NCBI GenBank assembly: GCA_947175515.1
Contig: CAMWNA010000002.1
Location: 1-52,147 of the forward strand
From: an uncultured Clostridia bacterium
Lineage (GTDB): Bacteria > Bacillota > Clostridia > Christensenellales > Borkfalkiaceae
Length of the DNA stretch: 52,147 nt
Reading direction: 5' to 3'
Position numbers and translations under genes: made by a program. This document shows, in pieces, positions 44,550-45,332 of the stretch. The stretch's first letter is position 1; each line of letters begins with the position of its first letter. The notes under the pieces were generated by a model. The model had not been told where the DNA came from and ran no database searches. It saw only the letters and a list, made by a program, of their open reading frames with translations.

Positions 44550-45035
44550 TTATTCTCCTGCGGCTTTATGGGTAAATAGATTAACGATACGCTTATGCTT
44601 CTTAACGGCATATTGATACGTTTTGTATGCACCGCTATTTTCACGTTCCTCTACCCAAAACAAAATCAAATCGCTTTGGTCTATCATTGCAAGGTTACGA
44701 TAATAAATTGCCGTGTACCAATAGTCAAAATCCTTTGTCGGACACTCCAATGCTTCATACTCTTTGCGGATAAACCATCTCGGCGGCTTTCGCAACTGCT
44801 TATCAAGTGCAAAACAAAATACCCTTTTGACATTGAGTTGCGGGTTAGCGTTTCTTTTTTCGGTTACAATGTCATAGCACAAATCATCAAAATCACTTCT
44901 ACCGCCGAATAGAAAAATTCTCACACCGTCCTCTATCGCCTTGTCGATTTCTATTCTCGTTCTTGCTATTAGGTCATCTGTTATATTGACGTCTGAATGC
45001 CCAAAGCACGAACAAGTCTTTTCAACTGTTGACAT
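44550..45035 (-). CDS. SLOG-superfamily (DUF1273/YpsA-like) nucleotide-sensor-type protein
   Basis: TCSCFGHSDVNITDDL...DKAIEDGVRIFLFGGRSDFDDLCYDIV...RNLAMIDQSDLILFWVEERENSGAYKTYQYAVKKHKRIVNLF. Confidence 0.75.
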   Translation of the reverse strand: MSTVEKTCSCFGHSDVNITDDLIARTRIEIDKAIEDGVRIFLFGGRSDFDDLCYDIVTEKRNANPQLNVKRVFCFALDKQLRKPPRWFIRKEYEALECPTKDFDYWYTAIYYRNLAMIDQSDLILFWVEERENSGAYKTYQYAVKKHKRIVNLFTHKAAGE

Positions 45036-45243
45036 AAAAAAAGATGCCGCTCCCTTGCGAGAGCGACACCATAGCATACACATCTCGCGTAGTTGCGACA
45101 CCACATAAAACTCGACCTCAAGGTAAACCTCTCTGTACAAAGCCTGCGATAGTGTATTGCTACCTATTTTAAGCCTTGCACAAAGCATAACAAAATATAC
45201 CTTTGGTGAGATCGAGTCCAAAGGTTGTTTTATATGATGTCGC
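45036..45243 (-). ncRNA. candidate structured cis-regulatory/stand-alone RNA upstream of the SLOG gene
   Basis: ACCUUUGG-ACUCGAUCUCA-CCAAAGGU hairpin; loop complementary to UGAGGUCGAGU; antiterminator GCGAGA/UCUCGC; terminator GGUGUCGCUCU/GGAGCGGCAUC + U7. Confidence 0.7.
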
Positions 45244-45249
45244 ATTGCT

Positions 45250-45278
45250 ATTATAGCACAATCAGTAGAAAATATCAA
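45250..45278 (-). promoter_or_regulatory. promoter TTGATA-N17-TATAAT for the candidate RNA
   Basis: -10 at 45250..45255, -35 at 45273..45278. Confidence 0.8.
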
Positions 45279-45299: not shown

Positions 45300-45332
45300 A
45301 AAAAGCCGCTACATAAAGTAACGGCTTTCAGT
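45300..45332. terminator. hairpin with flanking A/T runs, likely bidirectional terminator
   Basis: AAAGCCGCTACATAAAGTAACGGCTTT. Confidence 0.6.

Follow-up and report, generated by a model that had tools for sequence, protein, structure and literature searches.

An undescribed family of structured leader RNAs ahead of surface-protein and SLOG genes in gut Clostridia

Features of the locus

The window, the 52,147-nucleotide stretch of clostridial DNA analysed here, carries on its minus strand a structured RNA that runs from about 45244 to 45036 and leads directly into a gene of the SLOG fold. All features described below lie on this strand. The unit is bounded upstream by a terminator (AGCCGUUAC..GUAGCGGCUUUUU, 45300..45326) that is 99% identical at a locus in another bacterial family, L098; a similar terminator stands ahead of several other copies of the RNA. 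A sigma-70-like promoter, TTGATA-N17-TATAAT, follows at 45250..45278 (TTGATA at 45278-45273, TATAAT at 45255-45250). At about the predicted +1 begins the 5' strand of a long closing stem, P1 (UGCGACAUCAUAUAAAAC, 45227..45244). Its 3' strand (GUUUUAUGUGGUGUCGCA) lies at 45094..45111, and the two strands are supported by the same comparisons (z=-32, n=97).

The strands of P1 enclose a long rod. In the minimum-energy fold the rod is lengthened by a side hairpin at 45199..45225, ACCUUUGG-ACUCGAUCUCA-CCAAAGGU, whose 11-nt loop is complementary to UGAGGUCGAGU at 45120-45110. Comparison across the family identifies an apical element, B (GUAGCAAUACAC, 45152..45163), with a conserved G ahead of it that completes the motif GGUAG. 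On the 3' side of B, the sequence UCGC (45146..45149) recurs by inspection in many members and may possibly form part of a sensor core.

Downstream of P1 lie the parts of a putative switch. The hexamer GCGAGA (45083..45088) is the 5' strand of an antiterminator and pairs with UCUCGC at 45062-45057; it is supported by the fold and by comparison with the terminator region (z=-15.4). Segment C (GUGUAUGCUAU, 45071..45081) can pair either with B, forming a pseudoknot, or with the 5' arm of the terminator, forming the antiterminator. The intrinsic terminator itself, at 45036..45070, consists of two arms, T5 and T3, and a U7 tract: GGUGUCGCUCU-CGCAAG-GGAGCGGCAUC. The window pseudoknot, GUAGCAAUACAC with GUGUAUGCUAU, has 11 base pairs and one bulge. 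The RNA as a whole folds at -89 kcal/mol (z=-9.7), and none of 200 shuffled sequences folds equally well.

The SLOG gene (44550..45035) encodes 161 amino acids and a stop, and its AUG at 45035 abuts the U tract. The only Shine-Dalgarno-like stretch before this codon is GGGAGCGG, within the 3' arm of the terminator. From its sequence alone the protein matches no Pfam or NCBIfam model. Its AlphaFold model (pLDDT 89.8) matches Bacillus subtilis YpsA (2nx2, TM 0.70), DprA, the LOG-AMP/LOG folds and the SLOG domain of ThsA, and also resembles ShosA (8zva); these matches bear out the name SLOG given to the gene in a preliminary description of this DNA. The YpsA/SLOG family (PF06908; 2nx2) shares its fold with this protein, a gene partner of the RNA, and the window protein falls below Pfam detection. 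The SLOG frame stays open upstream across the whole RNA (44550-45278, a 242-aa ORF from a TTG), probably by chance, because the length of the open frame differs among other copies.

Extent of the family

Searching 61 related genomes at the DNA level turned up additional copies. Two other contigs of the window's genome, C93 and C99, carry the RNA ahead of other SLOG genes, and copies L004 and L006 occur without a SLOG gene. Six copies share the closing stem P1 (GCGAC...GUCGC), the apical GGUAG and the 3' domain with its terminator; the rod between them varies. A fourth, different copy in the window's genome (L243, G000:C62:6917-6980) is of a GAAUUUGAUAAAAA subtype and precedes the reading frame MATKTLSNAKK.

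We then describe the spread of the family through a covariance model of the 3' domain, whose E-values are rough. Within the genus it matches 66 of 94 genomes (E <= 0.5) and within the order 88 of 200 (E <= 0.1), often in tandem, the weakest matches being ordinary terminators. Genomes of the order hold up to 10 copies each. A related form occurs elsewhere in the same class: 38 of 392 genomes match at E <= 5e-4, and in nearly all those inspected P1 is present, accompanied by an apical element of a related type, GGUAAAAAUGCAUGCUC. Beyond the class, the phylum yielded three matches (L210-L212); none has a proper P1, and they were set aside as chance terminators. A pattern derived from the class-level type retrieved 27 stretches from 264 Gb of GTDB genomes, nearly all with P1; their titles all name Clostridia, Oscillospiraceae/Ruminococcaceae, Ruminococcus, Eubacterium or Monoglobus, and it is such titles that suggest a setting among gut Clostridia. 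One locus (L131, G104:C27) has four RNA copies in tandem, 257-282 nt apart, each with its own promoter and terminator.

Is this a known RNA? At gathering thresholds, Rfam 15 has no match over the RNA in the window or at 40 member loci; an E-value search with the window RNA itself returned matches at chance level only, and further members gave none over the RNA at E <= 0.05. Assignment to a known Rfam class was accordingly rejected, in keeping with the preliminary description, which had proposed this search. A match to RT-14 RNA (RF02921) lies near one class-level copy but outside it (L199:2392-2568). The open-licence papers that we searched contain no description of the RNA family, and PMC11109978 is silent on all the gene types looked for. 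The RNA belongs to an undescribed family of structured RNAs of about 140-260 nt, found in gut Clostridia at the head of many genes for surface proteins and for SLOG proteins.

Conserved pairings and the proposed switch

Six elements are conserved throughout the family: the promoter, the long closing stem P1, the apical GGUAG element B, segment C after P1, the antiterminator and the terminator. We located the outer stem in each member and compared the energy of its own pairings with that obtained when parts were exchanged between members, over 20000 permutations. P1 pairs at -17.4 kcal/mol with its own partner and at -6.7 kcal/mol when swapped (z=-32.3, n=97). The antiterminator, formed by the segment after P1 and the terminator, gives z=-15.4, and the pseudoknot between B and C gives z=-11.8 in the 71 members with GGUAG and z=-9.8 in the 26 without it. 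For none of the three did any of the 20000 permutations do equally well. B and C covary visibly, as in GUAGUAAUGUAC/GUACAUUCUAC (L070), GUAGUAAUACC/GGUAUUCUGC (L004) and GUAGGAACCCCUAUC/GAUAGGGGUACUGC (L182). An equivalent promoter is present in 103 of 110 members, its -10 element ending 1-7 nt ahead of P1 (most often 5); a control region further upstream gave 9 of 106.

An alignment of 19 sequences from a compact subfamily gives a similar picture. Paired cells amount to 98% in P1, 94% in the pseudoknot and 97% in the terminator. Both sides have changed in 12 of 33 pairs, against 6.4 in shuffles, and in P1 this is true of 5 of 9 pairs. In a blind screen of all column pairs the terminator, the antiterminator, P1 and both halves of the pseudoknot rank near the top. 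The antiterminator varies little within this subfamily, where its covariation is slightly above that of shuffles; most of its support comes from comparisons across subfamilies. As far as sequence comparison goes, then, the mutually exclusive antiterminator and terminator are conserved by covariation, as expected of an intrinsic attenuator, with a weak signal in the compact subfamily alone. Two further pairings were considered. The 5' end of the RNA can be paired by eye with the terminator arm in the window (11 bp), but this is not general: just 49 of 97 members pair better with their own parts than with the median swap. A small hairpin between the inner 3' strand of P1 and the nucleotides after it has weak support (z=-4.5).

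The preliminary description had pointed to the promoter, the hairpin, the loop complement, the terminator and the antiterminator strand, and all are present on the minus strand. Its picture of a structured leader with a pseudoknot and exclusive terminator and antiterminator folds is backed by about 100 non-redundant homologues, and the covariation that it called for is strong, both in own-versus-swapped pairing and in pair counts. Homology likewise favours the 3' edge and the start, near 45244, that it gave (it had 45243). Its pseudoknot is another matter. The conserved one joins not the hairpin loop and its complement but the GGUAG element (45163-45152) and the segment before the terminator (45081-45071). 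When the downstream strand was shuffled 20000 times, a complement of 11/11 arose 22 times, so that it is unlikely to be chance, but the loop pairing is lineage-specific: in the nearest divergent homologue (L100) the complementary site pairs over 4 nt only, and we rejected this pairing as the conserved core.

How might these pairings be used? C is common to the pseudoknot and the antiterminator, and T5 is used by the antiterminator; therefore B:C, C:T5 and T5:T3 form a relay. When transcripts are folded as far as the terminator loop, C and the 5' arm of the terminator form a hairpin in nearly every member. In 70 of 71 members this hairpin engages 30% or more of the paired bases of C, and it takes up a median of 79% of the 5' arm. 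Median energies are -17.4 for the terminator, -13.9 for the antiterminator and -12.2 for the pseudoknot. Because the terminator is energetically favoured over the antiterminator in 85 of 97 members, a switch would need either kinetic control or a ligand to drive it.

We propose that the RNA is a cis-acting, riboswitch-type transcription attenuator of an orphan class absent from Rfam, a reading to which we give a probability of roughly 0.8. Judged from sequence, it has the architecture expected of a riboswitch: a conserved structured leader upstream of genes, with an expression platform. Transcription would begin at the base of P1, and the rod would fold and display B at its apex. Polymerase completes B and C ahead of T5, which gives the pseudoknot the chance to form first. 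With C held by B, the 5' terminator arm would be free, the terminator would form and transcription would stop before the gene (OFF). Alternatively, C would pair with the 5' terminator arm and polymerase would read through (ON). A signal acting on the rod, perhaps a small molecule, would decide the outcome by holding or breaking the pseudoknot. In the SLOG copies, whose starts have no Shine-Dalgarno sequence apart from the 3' terminator arm, read-through might also release GGGAGCGG to serve in this role.

Several known systems have comparable designs. The fluoride/crcB, ZTP/pfl and preQ1-I riboswitches are 5' leaders in which an apical loop forms a pseudoknot with a downstream strand beside an intrinsic terminator, an arrangement that the present family shares. 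Unlike them, it has no Rfam match and a much larger rod (in an RNA of about 140-260 nt), and its pseudoknot strand competes with an antiterminator that in turn competes with the terminator. The overlapping pairings recall trp-type attenuators, in which a relay of 1:2, 2:3 and 3:4 ends in antiterminator or terminator. Here, however, the part of segment 1 falls to the apical element of a long rod, and the 1:2 pairing is a pseudoknot; no leader peptide was found. The c-di-GMP riboswitches of Clostridia (GEMM-I/II) control surface proteins, occur in tandem and are present in many copies per genome. The family likewise has tandem and numerous copies and would control surface proteins, but differs in structure and in matching no Rfam model.

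The same attenuator could instead be triggered by a macromolecule, such as an RNA-binding protein, a tRNA or the RNA of another copy, and we regard this as plausible, though less likely than not. The rods are large and variable, and with many copies in one genome their B and C sequences could cross-pair. The T-box provides a precedent for long leaders with antiterminators, and like the T-box (RF00230) the RNA is a long leader that would choose between antiterminator and terminator. Against such a trigger, Rfam finds no match to the T-box or to any other leader that binds protein or tRNA, and no conserved protein gene is linked to every copy. The RNA differs from the T-box also in that by inspection the alignment contains no T-box sequence, and in that the pseudoknot is internal and not a tRNA contact.

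Downstream genes, recombination and significance

What might the leader control? Among 133 copies in the order, 99 have a same-strand ORF within 130 nt: 35 are SLOG genes, 30 encode lipoproteins, 8 encode further proteins that carry a signal or membrane segment, and 26 are others. A further 20 have no close gene, 10 face a convergent gene and 4 lie at contig ends. Measured from where the matched terminator ends, 26 of 35 SLOG start codons lie at -5..+2 nt; lipoprotein starts lie mostly 5-36 nt past that end. Pfam matches in 100 downstream proteins include BspA LRR_5 (20), LRR_8 (13), YpsA SLOG (PF06908, 10), List_Bact_rpt (9) and zinc ribbons (7), with an EcoRI-type methylase, LicD and HTH among the singletons. 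The preliminary idea of a leader for SLOG genes therefore survives in part: such genes follow many copies, but the RNA is not specific to them and also precedes lipoprotein, BspA-LRR, zinc-ribbon, modification-enzyme and other genes. So mixed a set of gene classes does not name the ligand. At two class-level loci (L187, L202) short Cys-rich peptides (MIIDITGIELIPGNGGKDCPGNGENGNECCC...) follow the RNA and may be of the ribosomally made kind. Four copies of the RNA (L006, L049, L124, L145) face convergent genes that all belong to one small HTH family (MxxSxxFQxRxxxLV...).

These arrangements bear on whether the RNA might be a stand-alone structured small RNA, with the gene behind its terminator incidental. 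Nearly all copies have their own promoter and a strong terminator, about a quarter of the order-level copies face a convergent gene or have none within 130 nt, and tandem arrays occur, as in G104:C27. We nevertheless consider this unlikely. Antiterminator and terminator covary (z=-15), which would be needless for a fixed 3' end; the start codons of SLOG genes keep a constant position where the terminator ends, and those of other genes lie just past it; and SLOG, LRR and zinc-ribbon genes recur downstream in many genera.

At L098 the promoter and RNA are 99-100% identical to those of the window over about 229 nt and the SLOG gene is 86% identical. At L070, in the same genus, the SLOG gene is 89% identical and the rod 48%. 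It follows that the sensor rod recombines separately from the 3' domain with its gene. These identities would also suit a mobile repeat, or a cassette that recombines, in which an inverted repeat gives rise to the folding as a by-product, as would a truncated copy in G012 (L064, contig C36), where the promoter and 5' half of the RNA stop just past GGUAGCAAUA and unrelated sequence follows, and assembly breaks within the RNA in G008 (the end of L065 and the start of L063, contigs C17/C8). Such breaks would be expected if the rod exists in nearly identical copies or varies between strains. That the pseudoknot, antiterminator and promoter position are kept in very diverged copies is unlike a by-product and makes this reading very improbable. 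Plasmid origin was rejected for want of a plasmid match. Phage origin was rejected as well: the single 'phage' match is MT835511, and no viral contig carries the SLOG gene. That unverified GenBank record (L242, MT835511.1, 'Bacteriophage sp.') is probably bacterial DNA, in which the RNA-SLOG unit lies beside a gene for pyruvate phosphate dikinase.

Least credible of all is a type III toxin-antitoxin pair in which the RNA would be the antitoxin and the SLOG protein the toxin, despite the order of promoter, structured RNA, terminator and gene and the resemblance of the SLOG model to ShosA (8zva): the RNA is one long rod without tandem short repeats, it also precedes lipoproteins, LRR proteins and zinc-ribbon proteins, and the downstream fold is SLOG, which is not an endoribonuclease fold, with no ToxN-like ribonuclease.

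In its fullest form, the riboswitch-type attenuator would be a class spread over many families of gut Clostridia, one that responds to a signal and controls surface, zinc-ribbon, DNA-modification and SLOG genes, with a rod sensor swappable by recombination and a relay of pseudoknot, antiterminator and terminator; the chances of this whole picture seem to us evenly balanced. If it is true, a major group of gut bacteria has a numerous class of regulatory RNA, up to 10 copies per genome, that is absent from Rfam, and a SLOG family is tied to surface proteins under seemingly one kind of switch. The relay and the swappable sensor lead to clear, testable predictions. The identity of the ligand would tell which signal sets the surface of these bacteria, and may show what YpsA-like SLOG proteins bind.
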